From assembly GCA_029245345.1 (NCBI GenBank), contig JAQWPM010000014.1:1-64000 (forward strand): a DNA stretch of 64,000 nt, read 5' to 3'. The notes under the pieces are model-generated. The model saw only the letters and a program-made list of their open reading frames with translations, was not told the DNA's origin and did no database searches. Positions 27,279 to 34,180 of this stretch are shown in pieces (within the stretch, counting starts at the first letter, position 1; each line of letters opens with the position of its first letter). The translations under genes and the position numbers were made by a program. Source of the DNA: Longimicrobiales bacterium. GTDB lineage: Bacteria; Gemmatimonadota; Gemmatimonadetes; Longimicrobiales; Gaopeijiaceae.

Positions 27279-28802
27279 TCAGCCACCCGGAGGCCAAACA
27301 ACGTATGGGACCTGATCCTCATCCGGAACCGCGAAATGAGTCCGTAGCGAGTCCAACTGTAGAGCAAGGGTCGCTCGCACGTCGGCATACTGCGGATCGG
27401 CATGGACACTGGAAAGTTCGTCCGGGTCGGCCACCAAATCAAAGAGCTCCCACTCATCGATCTCGTAGTAGTGGATCAACTTGTGCGTCTGTGTACGCAC
27501 GCCGTAGTGACGCCGCACCATGTGCCATCCCGGGTACTCGAAGTACTGATAATAGATGGCGTCTCTCCAATCGGCTGGCGCCTCTCCGTCAAAGAGTTCG
27601 ACCATGCTACGACCTTGCATAGAGTTCGGGATCGAGGCCCCAGCCAAGTCCAAGAACGTCTCGGCGAGGTCGAGATTCTGAACCATCGCGTCACTCACGG
27701 TGCCCGCCTCGATACCGGCCGGCCACCGGATCAGCATGGGGGTACGCAGCGACTCCTCGTACATCCATCGCTTGTCGAACCAGCCGTGGTCGCCCAAGAA
27801 GAAGCCCTGGTCAGAGGTGTACACCACCACCGTATTGTCCGCGAGGCCCTCCTCCTCCAAGTAGTCGAGTACCCTGCCCAAGTTGTCATCTACGGAGGCG
27901 ATCGCCCGCAGATAGTCCTTCACGTAGCGCTGGTACTTCCAGCGGACGAGTTCATCTCCTTCGAGGCCGGCTGCTTCCAACGCTTCATTTCGGGGCACAT
28001 AGGCGGCGTACCATGTCTCGAGTTGCGCTTCCGTCAGATTCGCAGGCGGCACGAACTTGAGATCTCGGTCCGTCATGTCGCGCGCAATCGTCATCTCCTG
28101 CGTCTGGGCGGCACTCGTGCGGCCCTCCCAGTCGTCGAAGAGCGTGGACGGCTCAGGCAGCTCGATGTCTGTATAGAGATCGAGTTGGTCTGGGCCCGGG
28201 GCCCACTCTCGGTGAGGCGCTTTGTGTTGATACATGAGCAAGAACGGCTCGGACGGATCACGCTCCTGCCTCATCCATTCGAGCGCTCGGTCCGTGATGA
28301 TGTCCGTCGTGTACCCTTCGTAGCGCACGCTGTCGGTTGGCGTGTAGAGCACGGGGTTGTAGTACGGCCCCTGCCCGCGAAGCACTTCGTAGTGGTCAAA
28401 TCCTTTAGGGCTGATCTTGAGGTGCCACTTCCCGACAATGGCCGTCTGGTAGCCGACGTCCTGCAGGAGTCCAGGGAAAGTGACGGTCGCAGAATAGAGC
28501 GTGTCCCGATTCGTTGGGACGCCGTTCAGGTGTCCGTACTGACCGCTGAGTACCGTCGCTCGACTGGGGGCACAGATGGAGTTCGTGACGAAGGCATTCC
28601 GGAAGAGAATGCCCTCGGCCGCGAGGCGATCGATGTTCGGTGTCTGATTCAACACCGATCCATAGGCGGACACCGCATGTGCTGCATGGTCGTCCGTGAA
28701 GACCAGGAGAATATTGGGGCGTTCCTGAGCAGAATCCTGCCCTTGCCCCGAGCATCCTGCGATCGCCACGAGCACGTATCCGATCCGTCGGCGCACGTTC
28801 AT
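27279..28802 (-). CDS. Lipoprotein sulfatase (formylglycine type)
   Basis: The 507-aa protein has a lipobox-like AIAGCSG and the sulfatase start RPNILLVFTDDH. The C-x-P-S-R motif (C77-APSR) is where Cys is converted to formylglycine, and GYQTAIVGKWHL and TSDQGFFLGDHG follow. It resembles choline-sulfatase/arylsulfatase S1 enzymes of the N-sulfoglucosamine or iduronate type. It cleaves sulfate esters outside the cytoplasm. Its ATG overlaps the stop of the SulP gene, suggesting that released sulfate is handled by that transporter. Confidence 0.9.
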   Translation of the reverse strand: MNVRRRIGYVLVAIAGCSGQGQDSAQERPNILLVFTDDHAAHAVSAYGSVLNQTPNIDRLAAEGILFRNAFVTNSICAPSRATVLSGQYGHLNGVPTNRDTLYSATVTFPGLLQDVGYQTAIVGKWHLKISPKGFDHYEVLRGQGPYYNPVLYTPTDSVRYEGYTTDIITDRALEWMRQERDPSEPFLLMYQHKAPHREWAPGPDQLDLYTDIELPEPSTLFDDWEGRTSAAQTQEMTIARDMTDRDLKFVPPANLTEAQLETWYAAYVPRNEALEAAGLEGDELVRWKYQRYVKDYLRAIASVDDNLGRVLDYLEEEGLADNTVVVYTSDQGFFLGDHGWFDKRWMYEESLRTPMLIRWPAGIEAGTVSDAMVQNLDLAETFLDLAGASIPNSMQGRSMVELFDGEAPADWRDAIYYQYFEYPGWHMVRRHYGVRTQTHKLIHYYEIDEWELFDLVADPDELSSVHADPQYADVRATLALQLDSLRTHFAVPDEDQVPYVVWPPGG

Positions 28803-31024
28803 GAATCGAGCTCCAAGATCAAAGCGTTCGCCCCCCGGAGTCGGGTCCCCAGGATCCTGCCGATGCTCTTCTGGATCTTCATCGCGACTTGGGGACGTTC
28901 TTCACTGAGCTTGGAGAACGCATCAAACGTGAGTTCAAGCACCTCGAGTCGACCCGTGGCCCGCACGCCCGCGGCCCTGGGGAGTCCATCCAGTAGAGCC
29001 ATCTCGCCGAACACAGTCCCCTGAGACAACGTCGCGAGACGGCGACGTCGGGTACCACCTGGAATCGGGATGGACACATCCGCGTCTCCGCGGCACAAGA
29101 GATAGAGTGACCGACTCGTGTCGCCCTCCACGAAGACAAAGTCCTCGGGATCGAAGGTCCGGCGTTCCATGATCAGAGACAGAGCCTCAAGCTCGTCACC
29201 TGTAATCTCCCACGCCTCTCCGAAGTCTTCGAGCGTCCACCCATTCTTATGACTGTCCCCGGCTCCAAGCTTCATGAGGAGCCCTTCCTCGAAGTGTTCG
29301 AGGCCGGCATCCGAGCTCTCGAACATTCGAGCGGCAGGAACTCCGTTGAGCACCAGGTCCTCCGCGAGGTCCGAGTTGATCGTCCCCGGCTGGACATATC
29401 CGAACGCCAACGTCGTCCCGCGCGACCTCAGCCGTTCGAAGGTCTGCCCCAGGACCTTGAAGCCGGTCGCGTCAATCCCGCTCACGCGTTTCATATCCAG
29501 AAGCACGAACTCGGCGCCCTTGTCCGCCAGATCCTCCGCACGAGCCGCTAGGGGATCACACGATCCAAAGAAAATCATACCCTCGAGTTGGATCACCGCG
29601 ATCCGCTGCCCTTCCTCGACCAACAGGTCGGTCATGTACTGATCGCGCCGTTTGGTTGATCGGACCGTGCGGCCCGTCCGAACGCGCCGAATAGGGGAGC
29701 GACTCATCTGAGCGACGAAGACCAAGGCGGACAATGCGACCCCTGCCCCCACCGCGAAGACCAGCCCAGCGACGACTCCCACAGCAACAACGAACGCCAT
29801 CTGAGCGACCGCGACAATATTGTCTCGTCGGTCCTCTGCCTCTGTATTCAGCGCTTCCTTGATCTGATCGAAGCTCCACCGGTCGAAGAGCCCCGACGCG
29901 ATCACCATGATGAGACCGGCGATGGCCGCCTTCGGAATCATCGCGAGCGGCTGAGCGAGCAGCACGACCAATACGAGGACCGCTACCGCGTTCACCACAC
30001 CGGAAACACGGGTACGCCCACCGGCGCTGTGGTTCACCGCCGCTCGAGCCAAAATCCCCGAGGTCGTGAGTCCGCCGAAGAACGCCACTGCGGCCGATCC
30101 GATTCCCTGCCCGATAAGCTGGTTGTTCGCGTCGAACCGCTTGTCTGCAATGCTCTGGTACGTAACCAAAGTGATCAGCGCGGAGATGGAATCGAGCACG
30201 GCCATAGCCAGCGCACCGGAAATCACCGCGGCGAGAAGCGTGAAGTTGGCGCTGTCAGTAAAGGCACTCACAATGCCCGCGAAATAGGCTGGCGTCGGCA
30301 CAGCGGACGGTAAGGCGCCGAGGACGGGGCCCAACGGGACATCCCCTCCCACGAAATCGATCACGTGGTATAGGACCGTACCACTCACCAACGCGACGAC
30401 CGCAACGGCGGGCTTGGGCATGAACTTGCTGCCTTTCCAAGCCAATCCTGCAGTCACTGCCGCCACGAGCATGGTAGCTGGCTGGATCTGACCCAGGCCG
30501 CCCAGCAATTCGAGCGGTGACTGCTTCGAAACCCCGAGAAACGGCCAGAACTGTCCGTAGATCAGCAGGATGGCGGTCGTATTCCGAATGCCGGCTACAA
30601 CCGGATAGGGCATGAATTTGACCAGCCCGCCCACACGAAATGCACCAAGCAAAATTTGTACGCTTCCGCTGATCAGCACGGCCCCGAATGCCAACGAAAG
30701 CAGCAGGTTCGCGGACTCCGGGTTGGCCAAGTCGAATCGACCCGTGGCCAGCAATGACGCCAGCAGGGCAGCAAACGCCATGGACGTGGTCGCCTTCGGT
30801 CCGGAGATCATCCCCGGCGCGCCACCGAACAGTGCGGCCACTAGACCTGCAACTACGGAGGACAGCATGCCCGCCAGAATGCCCTGCCCAACGTATTCCG
30901 GACCGAGCGGGGCAAACGCGATGACGCCGGCTGCCACATTCCCGGTAATCGCCACGATCGCAGACGCAATACCTCCTGACAGGTCTCCGATCGCGATGCG
31001 GGTCTTAGGTGCGGCTTCCGGCAT
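28799..31024 (-). CDS. SulP anion transporter with STAS and cyclic-nucleotide-binding domains
   Basis: The 741-aa protein starts with a SulP/SLC26 membrane part (residues about 1-430; FGGAPGMISGPKATTSMAF, PYPVVAGIRNTTAIL). A STAS domain follows at about 475-590 (IAVIQLEGMIFFGS, VLLDMKRVSGIDATG with the usual D-x-T-G). A C-terminal cNMP-binding domain lies at about 620-735, whose cassette FGEMALLDGLPRAAGV keeps the ligand-binding Glu and Arg. Sulfate or bicarbonate import controlled by a cyclic nucleotide is the natural reading. It is translationally coupled to the sulfatase and divergent from the ATP-grasp/STELLO operon. Confidence 0.9.
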   Translation of the reverse strand: MPEAAPKTRIAIGDLSGGIASAIVAITGNVAAGVIAFAPLGPEYVGQGILAGMLSSVVAGLVAALFGGAPGMISGPKATTSMAFAALLASLLATGRFDLANPESANLLLSLAFGAVLISGSVQILLGAFRVGGLVKFMPYPVVAGIRNTTAILLIYGQFWPFLGVSKQSPLELLGGLGQIQPATMLVAAVTAGLAWKGSKFMPKPAVAVVALVSGTVLYHVIDFVGGDVPLGPVLGALPSAVPTPAYFAGIVSAFTDSANFTLLAAVISGALAMAVLDSISALITLVTYQSIADKRFDANNQLIGQGIGSAAVAFFGGLTTSGILARAAVNHSAGGRTRVSGVVNAVAVLVLVVLLAQPLAMIPKAAIAGLIMVIASGLFDRWSFDQIKEALNTEAEDRRDNIVAVAQMAFVVAVGVVAGLVFAVGAGVALSALVFVAQMSRSPIRRVRTGRTVRSTKRRDQYMTDLLVEEGQRIAVIQLEGMIFFGSCDPLAARAEDLADKGAEFVLLDMKRVSGIDATGFKVLGQTFERLRSRGTTLAFGYVQPGTINSDLAEDLVLNGVPAARMFESSDAGLEHFEEGLLMKLGAGDSHKNGWTLEDFGEAWEITGDELEALSLIMERRTFDPEDFVFVEGDTSRSLYLLCRGDADVSIPIPGGTRRRRLATLSQGTVFGEMALLDGLPRAAGVRATGRLEVLELTFDAFSKLSEERPQVAMKIQKSIGRILGTRLRGANALILELDS

Positions 31025-31152: not shown

Positions 31153-31175
31153 TGGCCGGGTGGCCAATCTCTCTG

Positions 31176-31181
31176 AAGGAG
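31176..31181 (+). promoter_or_regulatory. Ribosome binding site fixing the ATP-grasp start
   Basis: AAGGAG stands 8 nt before GTG 31190. It selects this start over the in-frame ATG at 31070, which has no binding site and would place the palindromic leader inside the coding sequence. Confidence 0.7.
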
Positions 31182-31189
31182 TATCCCGC

Positions 31190-32518
31190 GTGGCGTCCTC
31201 CCCCTCCGCGACGGACCATCCGATCTGGTCCGGGCTAGACCGAGATTTCCACACCGCCCTTCTCGAAGAAGGTCGCACCCCAGAGGGCGAAGCCCTCCGC
31301 CACAAGGCGGAGGCGCGCTTCATGTTCGCCGAAGGTAAGCCTTTCCTGCTGGGGCCTGCCCAAATGGTGCGAGCTGAGCTGGCCGAGACACTCCGTTTGG
31401 TGACAAAGACCTACCACCGCGCCATCGAGATCATCGTGAAAGCGTCCGTCACCGACGAGCACGTTCGCAGTGCACTCTCCGCTCCACCCGCCTTGGCATC
31501 GGACCTCAAGGCCGACAGGGACCCCGCCAACTGCCGGGTGCACATCTGTCGCCTCGACCTGATGCCGGACCCGGCCGGCGGATTCTGGATTATTGAGACG
31601 AACGCGAATTGCCCCGGCGGCTTCGTCTTCTCGGGGATCTGCAACAGAGCGTGGCGAGAGTTCATGGAGAAACGGGGACACACGATGCCGCCGGCACTAG
31701 CTCATGAAGAGAAGGCATTCATGGCGAAGTGGTTTCTCAAGGTCATTGAGCAAGACACCGGCGCCCGGCCAGACTTCCTCGGCCTCATTCGAGAGGAAGG
31801 CGGCAACCGACTCGAGCTTGGAGACTTTGCGAAGCACCTCAACTGGGAAGGCGTGGGATGCGAAGAAGTAGATCCGCGAGAGATCAAGTACGACGGCCAA
31901 GGGCCGCCGAGTGCACGTGGTCGTGCGCTGACACACGCATATCAGAAGCTGGGAATACAGCCGTTCCAAAGGATGCGCCCCGAGTGTGAGCCCTTCGTTC
32001 AGGCGGTGCGAGATCGGGCGCTCTTCGTTCAGAACGGGCAGCGCGGCCGCTGGGTCGGTGACGACAAGTTGTGCCTCGCTGTGATGTCTGACCCAGATTT
32101 CAAACATCTATTCGACGAGACCGACTGGGACCTCCTTCAGAAGCACGTCCCGTGGTCACGTAGCGCTCGTTTACTCGATCCTCAGTGGTTGGACTTGGTG
32201 CGCAACGAACGGCATCGCTACGTGCTCAAGCGGGGTCTCGACACGCGCGGCCAAGGGGTGATTATCGGCACGGGAGTCGACGCCGACCGCTGGTCCGAGG
32301 CCCTCGATGTCGCCATCGCCGAAGGCTGGCTAGTCCAGGAATACCATCCGACCACGTGGATCGAGTACGACGTCGATGCCCCTGACCTCCAACGTCACGA
32401 CGTGGCACTGGGGGCTATCAACGGGGAACTCACCACGATGTTCATGCGGAGTTCGGGCGAACTGCGGGTGAACATGTCCCGCTCCGGGCGCATGCACCCG
32501 ATCTTCCTCGGGGGCTGA
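31190..32518 (+). CDS. Circularly permuted ATP-grasp ligase-like protein
   Basis: The 442-aa product carries IIETNANCPGG at about residue 134, the metal/ATP segment also seen in glutathionylspermidine-synthase-like and other permuted ATP-grasp enzymes. The C-terminal ATP-grasp half follows (RYVLKRGLDTRGQGVIIG, WLVQEYHPTTWIEY, FMRSSGELRVNMSRSG). Such enzymes activate a carboxylate as acyl phosphate and join it to an amine or thiol. The substrate is unknown. It begins a three-gene run with 4-nt and 2-nt gaps to a GT2 and a STELLO transferase, so it probably adds an amino-acid-like or acyl group to the glycan made there. Confidence 0.75.
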   Translation: MASSPSATDHPIWSGLDRDFHTALLEEGRTPEGEALRHKAEARFMFAEGKPFLLGPAQMVRAELAETLRLVTKTYHRAIEIIVKASVTDEHVRSALSAPPALASDLKADRDPANCRVHICRLDLMPDPAGGFWIIETNANCPGGFVFSGICNRAWREFMEKRGHTMPPALAHEEKAFMAKWFLKVIEQDTGARPDFLGLIREEGGNRLELGDFAKHLNWEGVGCEEVDPREIKYDGQGPPSARGRALTHAYQKLGIQPFQRMRPECEPFVQAVRDRALFVQNGQRGRWVGDDKLCLAVMSDPDFKHLFDETDWDLLQKHVPWSRSARLLDPQWLDLVRNERHRYVLKRGLDTRGQGVIIGTGVDADRWSEALDVAIAEGWLVQEYHPTTWIEYDVDAPDLQRHDVALGAINGELTTMFMRSSGELRVNMSRSGRMHPIFLGG

Positions 32519-32522
32519 CACA

Positions 32523-33263
32523 GTGGCAGCCGTCTTCGAGTCTCTAACAGCCGTACTTCCCACGTTGGACGAGACGCATTCCCTCACGCATACCGTCGAC
32601 GTGCTCGTCGGAGACCTCCGTGCGGAACTGATCCAAATCCTAGTGATCGTATGTGATCGAACAACGGAAGGCGCGCTGTCGCACATCGATGCAGCGGTCG
32701 AGAAGTACCCAGACCTGGTCAGTGTGCATTGGCAGGACAAGCCATTCTTCGGCGGGGCCATCCTCAAGGCGTTCCAAGTCTCGACGGGCAGCCACACGAT
32801 GCTCATGGCTCCGGATCTCGAAACCAAGCCAGAGGACGCCCACGTGCTCGTGGCCGCAGCGAAGGAGCACCCAGACGCCGTGATCACGGCTTCGCGTTGG
32901 GCGGGTGGGGGCTTCGAGGGGTACAACAAGGTCAAGCTGGTCGCGAATTGGGTCTTCCAAAAAAGCTTCGCGATCTTGTACGGGGTAAAGCTCACCGACA
33001 TGACCTTTGGGTATCGAATTTTGCCCACACACCTCACCAAGACTATTAAGTGGGAAGAGGCCAGGCACCCGTTCGTCCTAGAAACAATCGTGAAACCGCT
33101 GCGACTCGGTGTAAGGGCCGTCGAGGTGCCTACGTCTTGGAAGGCGCGGGTAGAAGGTGAGTCGGTGAACCCGTTCATGCGTAACTTCGAGTACTTCAGA
33201 CCGGGCTTCAAAACCCGATTTATGAACCGCGACGACATTGTCAAGTCGGACGAGCCAGAGTAG
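32523..33263 (+). CDS. GT2-family glycosyltransferase (dolichyl-phosphate-mannose-synthase-like)
   Basis: The 246-aa protein has a GT-A fold start (TAVLPTLDETHSL), the acidic DLETKPED at the usual DxD position and TASRWAGGG. It also has the DPM-synthase-like helix (KVKLVANWVFQKSFAILYGVKLTDMTFGYRILP). There is no C-terminal membrane domain. It most likely transfers a sugar from a nucleotide donor to a lipid carrier or small acceptor. It starts with GTG 4 nt after the ATP-grasp stop and ends 2 nt before the STELLO-like start. Confidence 0.8.
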   Translation: MAAVFESLTAVLPTLDETHSLTHTVDVLVGDLRAELIQILVIVCDRTTEGALSHIDAAVEKYPDLVSVHWQDKPFFGGAILKAFQVSTGSHTMLMAPDLETKPEDAHVLVAAAKEHPDAVITASRWAGGGFEGYNKVKLVANWVFQKSFAILYGVKLTDMTFGYRILPTHLTKTIKWEEARHPFVLETIVKPLRLGVRAVEVPTSWKARVEGESVNPFMRNFEYFRPGFKTRFMNRDDIVKSDEPE

Positions 33264-33265
33264 AC

Positions 33266-34180
33266 ATGTCCAAAGTCATCGTCACCACCACGATCAATCC
33301 GCCCACTGAAGCGCTGCAGAAGTTCGCGGCCATGCCGGAGTGGCAGCTCGTTGTCATCGGGGACAAGAAGACCCCGACCGACTTCCATATCGATGGCGCG
33401 ATCTATGTCACGCCAGACGAACAGGAGAAATACGACCCCGAATTGTCGGAAGCACTCGGCTGGAACGTGGTTGAGCGCCGGAACTACGGCTTCTTATGGG
33501 CCAAGGACATGGGAGCCCAGGTCGTGGCCGTCGTCGACGACGACAATGTGCCGTTGGAAAACTGGGGCAAGCAGGTCTTCGTTGGGCAAGAAGTCGAGGT
33601 GGACTACTACGAGACAGACAAGCTCGCGTTCGATCCGGTCGCGGTAACGGAGCACAGTCACCTGTGGCACCGCGGATATCCGCCCCAATTGCTCGCCGAA
33701 CGAGATTTTGGCGAGCCACAGCGGAAGATCGTCACACCGGATGTTCAGGCAGACTTCTGGAACGGGGATCCGGACATCGACGCGTTCTGCCGCATGCAAT
33801 TCAAACCGGACGTCGTCTTCGACGCCTCACGCTTCCCACTCGCATCGAACAAGGTCGGGCCGTTCAATTCACAGAACACCTTTGTCAGTCCGGATTGGCT
33901 CGGAGAGTATTTCCTCTTCCCGCACGTCGGGCGCTTCATCGACATCTGGACGGCTTACTACGTGCAGTCGCGTGGCGCGACCCTGATTTATGGACCGCCC
34001 ACGGTCAGGCAGGACCGTAACGTCCACGACCTGACGCGCGACCTTGCGGCCGAATTCGTCGGATACGAGCACACGCTGGCGCTCCTCCAGCGCCTGGAGG
34101 ACGATCCCATGGCGATCTTCGATTTCATGCCAGAACGGGCCGGCGTGGCGTACCGCGCCTACCGGAAACACTTCGAGTAG
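33266..34180 (+). CDS. STELLO (DUF288)-like glycosyltransferase
   Basis: The 304-aa protein matches the STELLO/DUF288 pattern: LVVIGDKKTPTDF near the N-terminus, GAIYVTPDEQ, then RRNYGFLWAKDMGAQVVAVVDDDNVP with the acidic metal site. Plant STELLO proteins are Golgi glycosyltransferase-like proteins needed for cellulose-synthase assembly. Bacterial and algal homologues are mostly uncharacterised. There is no membrane helix here, so it should be cytoplasmic. The tight operon with a GT2 and an ATP-grasp ligase points to a small dedicated glycan pathway. The product is unknown. Confidence 0.78.
   Translation: MSKVIVTTTINPPTEALQKFAAMPEWQLVVIGDKKTPTDFHIDGAIYVTPDEQEKYDPELSEALGWNVVERRNYGFLWAKDMGAQVVAVVDDDNVPLENWGKQVFVGQEVEVDYYETDKLAFDPVAVTEHSHLWHRGYPPQLLAERDFGEPQRKIVTPDVQADFWNGDPDIDAFCRMQFKPDVVFDASRFPLASNKVGPFNSQNTFVSPDWLGEYFLFPHVGRFIDIWTAYYVQSRGATLIYGPPTVRQDRNVHDLTRDLAAEFVGYEHTLALLQRLEDDPMAIFDFMPERAGVAYRAYRKHFE

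Follow-up and report, generated by a model that had tools for sequence, protein, structure and literature searches.

The adjacent genes GT2 and MUT in the window (the whole 64,000-nucleotide stretch of DNA that we analyzed, from a Longimicrobiales genome of 3.8 Mb, here G000) point to a cell-surface sugar pathway that is understandable although it had not been recognised. GT2 encodes a glycosyltransferase that resembles dolichol-phosphate-mannose (DPM) synthase, and MUT encodes a homologue of the furanose-forming mutase MtdL. Together they are a real conserved unit that is widespread, while the trio that they form with an upstream gene, LIG, is not. The analysis adds a different assignment for the third protein, a GT2-mutase-SDR cassette that crosses phyla, and the linkage of an epimerase to the mutase in phages.

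The three open reading frames lie on the + strand with intergenic gaps of 4 nt and 2 nt (Table 1), so the gene layout given in an earlier reading of the DNA, made from the sequence alone, holds. All the motifs that it quoted are present: ETNANCPGG in LIG (residues 136-144), DLETKPED and TDMTFGYR in GT2 (98-105 and 158-165), and VVIGDKKTPTDF and VVDDDNVP in MUT (29-40 and 89-96). Its placement of the genes in a glycoconjugate setting was also right.

Table 1. Features of the LIG-GT2-MUT block (window coordinates)
Feature	Position	Strand	Properties and basis
Shine-Dalgarno-like GAAGGAG	31175..31181	+	8 nt upstream of the LIG start codon (GTG); from the sequence; start agrees with orthologues
LIG, circularly permuted ATP-grasp ligase	31190..32518	+	442 aa, GTG start; sub-threshold PF14403/PF03738, homologue above PF14403 cut-off, motif alignment
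GT2, DPM-synthase-like glycosyltransferase, acceptor probably polyprenyl phosphate	32523..33263	+	246 aa, GTG start; PF00535, profile matches, invariant residues
MUT, candidate MtdL/GT75-like NDP-pyranose/furanose mutase	33266..34180	+	304 aa, ATG start; MtdL profile, AlphaFold, Foldseek
DDD motif of MUT, D91-D93 (MtdL D109-D111)	33536..33544	+	kept in 43/43
Codon of MUT R136 (counterpart of MtdL catalytic R159)	33671..33673	+	kept in 43/43

MUT itself matches no Pfam or NCBIfam model, neither that of STELLO (PF03385) nor that of the plant reversibly glycosylated polypeptides (RGP, PF03214). When the PDB was searched with its sequence, MtdL alone rose above noise (E 5e-17), and a profile of 22 MUT relatives matched MtdL at E 4.6e-40 over residues 3-290, the full length. 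The AlphaFold model of MUT, built from 43 sequences, had a pLDDT of 94.4, and the six best PDB matches that Foldseek found for it were all MtdL structures (TM up to 0.82), followed by rice UAM2. Both homology and fold are therefore those of the GT75-type NDP-pyranose mutases (MtdL/UAM). By these sequence and structure comparisons, MUT is a whole-length homologue of MtdL, a metal-dependent GT75 GDP-pyranose/furanose mutase.

MtdL, the GDP-L-galactopyranose/furanose mutase of the antibiotic A201A pathway, and Hyg20, of the hygromycin pathway, are the only bacterial flavin-free furanose mutases characterized (PMC9937993). They share with MUT full-length homology, a GT-A-type fold, the DDD motif, the catalytic Arg and Asp, and the guanine-site Thr. 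MtdL differs in length (376 residues versus 304), with 24% identity in the structural alignment, and in setting, as it is encoded in an antibiotic cluster whereas MUT is paired with a DPM-like GT2. The plant UDP-arabinopyranose mutases (RGPs) resemble MUT in fold (rice UAM2), DDD motif, and conserved Arg; however, MUT lacks the RGP Pfam match, and its guanine-site residues resemble those of MtdL instead of the plant enzymes.

The sequence-only reading had taken the third protein for a STELLO (DUF288) transferase. Since STELLO consists of a GT75-like region and DUF288 (PMC4906169) and MUT has no DUF288 part, what the two have in common is the GT75-like region; MUT corresponds to this region only and is a distant relation. 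The PF03385 model gave partial matches to 9 of the 22 MUT relatives, over the first ~50-100 model positions in the cases shown, and distant bacterial relatives of MUT are annotated as STELLO. The GT-A-type assignment and a remote tie to STELLO survive. STELLO/DUF288 as the best label was rejected, as MUT has no PF03385 match, DUF288 is absent, and MtdL is much closer.

We counted residue conservation over 43 MUT relatives. The counterparts of MtdL R159, D109-111, D195, S228, Q229, R257, D260, and R289 are kept in 42-43 of the 43, so that the DDD motif, the catalytic Arg159, the base Asp260, Asp195, Gln229, and Arg257 are all in place. R159 is the proposed sugar-carrying arginine of MtdL (PMC9937993). 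The guanine-favoring T13 is also kept, and the S86 site, at which a change to Asp blocks GDP binding by MtdL (PMC9937993), is never Asp in the 43 relatives. Two positions depart from MtdL: the Mn ligand H287 is Gln in 42 of 43, and D87, mutation of which abolishes MtdL activity (PMC9937993), is Val or Ile in 41 of 43. Because nearly all MUT relatives lack this His and Asp of MtdL, we call MUT MtdL-like, not a proven member of the class; the replacements may reflect an altered substrate or chemistry. With its metal ligand and Asp87 replaced, the family offers a natural way to put the arginine-adduct mechanism proposed for MtdL to the test.

We consider it likely that MUT acts as a mutase. The loss of D87 and H287 would also fit a true STELLO/GT75-related glycosyltransferase that adds a sugar to a glycan or protein; GT2 would then be another transferase in one small glycan pathway, and the ring would not be contracted. 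The partial STELLO matches of some relatives agree with this reading, PGAP calls plasmid homologues of MUT STELLO glycosyltransferases, and several phage and plasmid copies lie among other transferases. However, the catalytic arginine, which is dispensable in STELLO (PMC4906169), is invariant in all 43 MUT relatives, the best structural matches of MUT are mutases, and phage copies are paired with an epimerase that produces a mutase substrate (see below). We therefore judge a glycosyltransferase role for MUT unlikely.

Gene linkage supports a mutase working with GT2. A single scan covering 85,000 species genomes yielded 17 loci, and GT2 lies directly before MUT in nine loci outside Gemmatimonadota, from five or more phyla: Bacteroidia, Acidobacteria, Verrucomicrobia (two), Saganbacteria, Margulisbacteria, and Planctomycetota (three). 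GT2 in these nine is 44-58% identical to that of the window over the part retrieved. An SDR of one family directly follows MUT in nine loci (L016-L023 and L027). This SDR is 71-80% identical between phyla, and its stronger conservation relative to the neighboring genes suggests that a GT2-MUT-SDR cassette has recently moved by horizontal transfer. It resembles GDP-L-fucose synthase and other epimerases; GDP-mannose 3,5-epimerase was rejected as its identity because, unlike the phage SDR described below, it is better matched by other SDRs. In a tree, all cassette-type bacterial MUT copies and one viral contig form a fully supported clade, apart from the other phage copies. By the refutation criterion that the sequence-only reading had set itself, co-occurrence of the three families, the trio is not widespread: it was found in four genomes of one family, and the widespread unit is GT2 with MUT.

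In several loci, PMT_2 proteins or unassigned multi-transmembrane (TM) proteins of 500-700 aa, GT-C-like in character, are encoded near the cassette. Two Verrucomicrobia have next to it a multi-TM protein that ends in TPR repeats at its C terminus (L019:5330-7225 and L024:8940-10889); these are possibly GT-C enzymes. The idea that the multi-TM protein of L021 is an AftB-like GT-C was dropped, as the protein had no PDB or NCBIfam match.

GT2 matches PF00535, and its profile retrieved dolichol-phosphate-mannose synthase (E 2e-17) and ArnC (E 1e-11) among solved structures. These matches are those of a DPM-synthase-like GT2, in agreement with the earlier call. Its best NCBIfam match is AglJ, far under that model's cut-off. 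Ten diverse relatives all keep residues D98, E100, R125, K138, D159, and R165. With DPM synthase, ArnC, and AglJ, GT2 shares the fold family by profile, an aligned acidic motif, and Arg/Lys residues around the lipid-phosphate site; it differs in having DLET rather than DXD, no TM domain, and a predicted furanose donor. The natural inference from the family is that the acceptor is probably polyprenyl phosphate.

MUT relatives also occur on at least 170 IMG/VR contigs and, as full-length copies of ~45% identity, in the GenBank cyanophages S-T4, Sf-CH5, and Sf-CH8; the copies of S-T4 (L005) and Sf-CH5 (L006) sit in sugar-gene clusters. GT2 relatives in GenBank phages amount to one weak match. Within ~8 kb of MUT, 64 of 80 retrieved viral loci (L029-L108) encode a relative of GDP-mannose 3,5-epimerase, adjacent to MUT in many; among the remaining loci, several are truncated at one end. 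The reference for this count, the epimerase of L103 (epimerase-MUT locus L103:6978-8913), matches the plant enzyme at E 4e-91. The epimerase is present in just 37 of 50,697 GenBank phage records, yet in 4/4 of the cyanophage records with MUT. Since the MUT-bearing phages are related to one another, these counts are not independent.

GDP-mannose 3,5-epimerase produces GDP-L-galactose. This is the sugar nucleotide that MtdL contracts (PMC9937993). The linkage suggests, from gene content, that the phages make GDP-L-galactofuranose; the same chemistry would then operate in phages, where it could alter the host surface during infection. In GenBank, the phage epimerase near MUT is often annotated as UDP-glucose 4-epimerase, and the S-T4 relative of MUT as a "putative membrane protein". 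MUT of the window showed no TM segment.

The scheme that we favor is a two-gene module supplying a furanose donor. MUT would convert an NDP-sugar from its pyranose to its furanose form, aided by a divalent metal and through a short-lived adduct at R136. The substrate would most likely be a GDP-L-sugar, for example GDP-L-fucose or GDP-L-galactose. GT2 would then transfer the furanose to polyprenyl phosphate at the inner membrane, and the resulting lipid-linked furanosyl donor would be flipped and used on surface glycans by a GT-C membrane transferase, in G000 one encoded at another site. We consider this whole scheme, lipid step included, moderately probable.

In G000, a gmd-like and fcl-like gene pair, both under the curated cut-offs, makes GDP-L-fucose the likeliest substrate there by gene content. 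A search of G000 for orthologues of the cassette SDR and of GDP-mannose 3,5-epimerase gave best matches of only ~30% identity, and neither orthologue was found. Another genome of the sample, G020, has a GDP-mannose 3,5-epimerase orthologue at 63% identity, and no good GDP-fucose synthase (fcl) was found in G001 or G159. No GT-C gene lies next to the GT2-MUT pair of the window; G000 does have a PMT_2 protein, encoded in another part of the genome. The missing genes weigh against the scheme, as does G159, which keeps MUT intact after the loss of most of GT2, of which residues 198-244 are left, and of SulP and LIG. The deletion scar in this genome (L012:3627-4109) joins residues 230-348 of a SnoaL-like gene to the GT2 remnant.

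The MUT family suggests that flavin-free mutase chemistry, in addition to its role in antibiotics, is put to use for surface glycans across many phyla without cultured members. It also gives a testable activity to proteins whose present labels are hypothetical, putative membrane protein, or STELLO.

We next consider LIG. Its AlphaFold model was built from just 3 sequences and had a pLDDT of 36, and the protein scores below the Pfam cut-offs of the permuted ATP-grasp families PF14403/PF03738 (16 bits versus 32). A homologue, L125, matches the LIG profile at E 2.9e-24 and exceeds the PF14403 cut-off with 47 bits. When LIG is aligned with this homologue, its motifs run in the order E136/N138/N140, K347, Q383-E384, which fits a permuted ATP-grasp. 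Thus, as the sequence-only reading had proposed, LIG is by its sequence a circularly permuted ATP-grasp protein, tied to the family through its homologues. It shares motif order with the PF14403/PF04174/PF03738 proteins and differs from them in gene setting and in its own sub-threshold score.

LIG would be an ATP-dependent ligase of the amide or peptide type, added to the pair in one Gemmatimonadota family; it may modify the product of the pair or work close by. The sequence-only reading would have LIG, GT2, and MUT jointly equip a sugar carrier with an amide-linked decoration. LIG is indeed upstream on the same strand in four genomes, at 73-76% identity and with Ka well under Ks, and in the sampled family close LIG copies are confined to genomes that also have GT2 and MUT. 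Against such a trio pathway, LIG is missing from all cassettes of other phyla, from G288, which keeps GT2 and MUT, and from G159, and in G020 a DUF3179 gene (L009:6439-7515) separates it from GT2. No LIG was found in phages, and plasmid matches reached only ~25% identity. Among 298 Gemmatimonadota genomes, a close LIG is present only in G000, G001, G020, and G150. The G150 homologue (L121:630-2895; E 1e-110, 39% identity) overlaps a glutathione-synthetase-type ATP-grasp gene, with which it may form a peptide-ligase pair; GT2 and MUT are absent, and no sugar gene was seen on the short contig.

Since LIG is found with the pair in just four genomes, all related, it is linked to GT2 and MUT only locally and lends the amide-decorated trio pathway little weight; we regard that pathway as distinctly improbable. 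The amide-linked decoration proposed earlier, which has the presence of LIG as its sole basis, is possible. The best reading of LIG is a lineage-specific add-on to the GT2-MUT pair. The most far-reaching combination, a widespread flavin-free route to polyprenyl-phospho-L-furanose donors through a mobile GT2-mutase-(SDR) cassette, a phage epimerase-mutase pair making GDP-L-galactofuranose, and a one-family LIG amidating the lipid-linked furanose, would define a new class of aminoacylated furanosyl glycoconjugates, and we view it as a long shot.

By sequence, the closest named relatives of the window are metagenome-assembled genomes of Gemmatimonadota. Our sample of close relatives comprised 59 genomes, 34 of the same family. 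Among these 34, three others carry the trio block (G001, G008, and G020), with gene order kept and identities to the window of 73-76% for LIG, 80-82% for GT2, and 80-88% for MUT. A SulP-STAS-cNMP transporter gene flanks the block on one side and a gamma-glutamyltranspeptidase (GGT) gene on the other. In G024, G006, and G009, the site is empty, with a nucleoside transporter gene directly upstream of GGT, so the trio is an accessory block. A functional link between LIG and GGT was rejected, as GGT is also present at the empty sites.

These empty sites would suit three unrelated passengers of an accessory region, without joint function and partly decaying, as would the truncated GT2 of G159 and an in-frame TAA in MUT of G001 (L003:1501-2412), which is an assembly error or marks a pseudogene. 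However, Ka is 0.08-0.20 for all three genes against a near-saturated Ks, which indicates purifying selection on each, and GT2 and MUT are paired across phyla. We therefore find the passenger reading highly improbable and retain the GT2-MUT module. The SulP gene of the window (28799-31024, - strand), which encodes STAS and C-terminal cyclic-nucleotide-binding domains, is divergent from LIG and adjoins a sulfatase gene.
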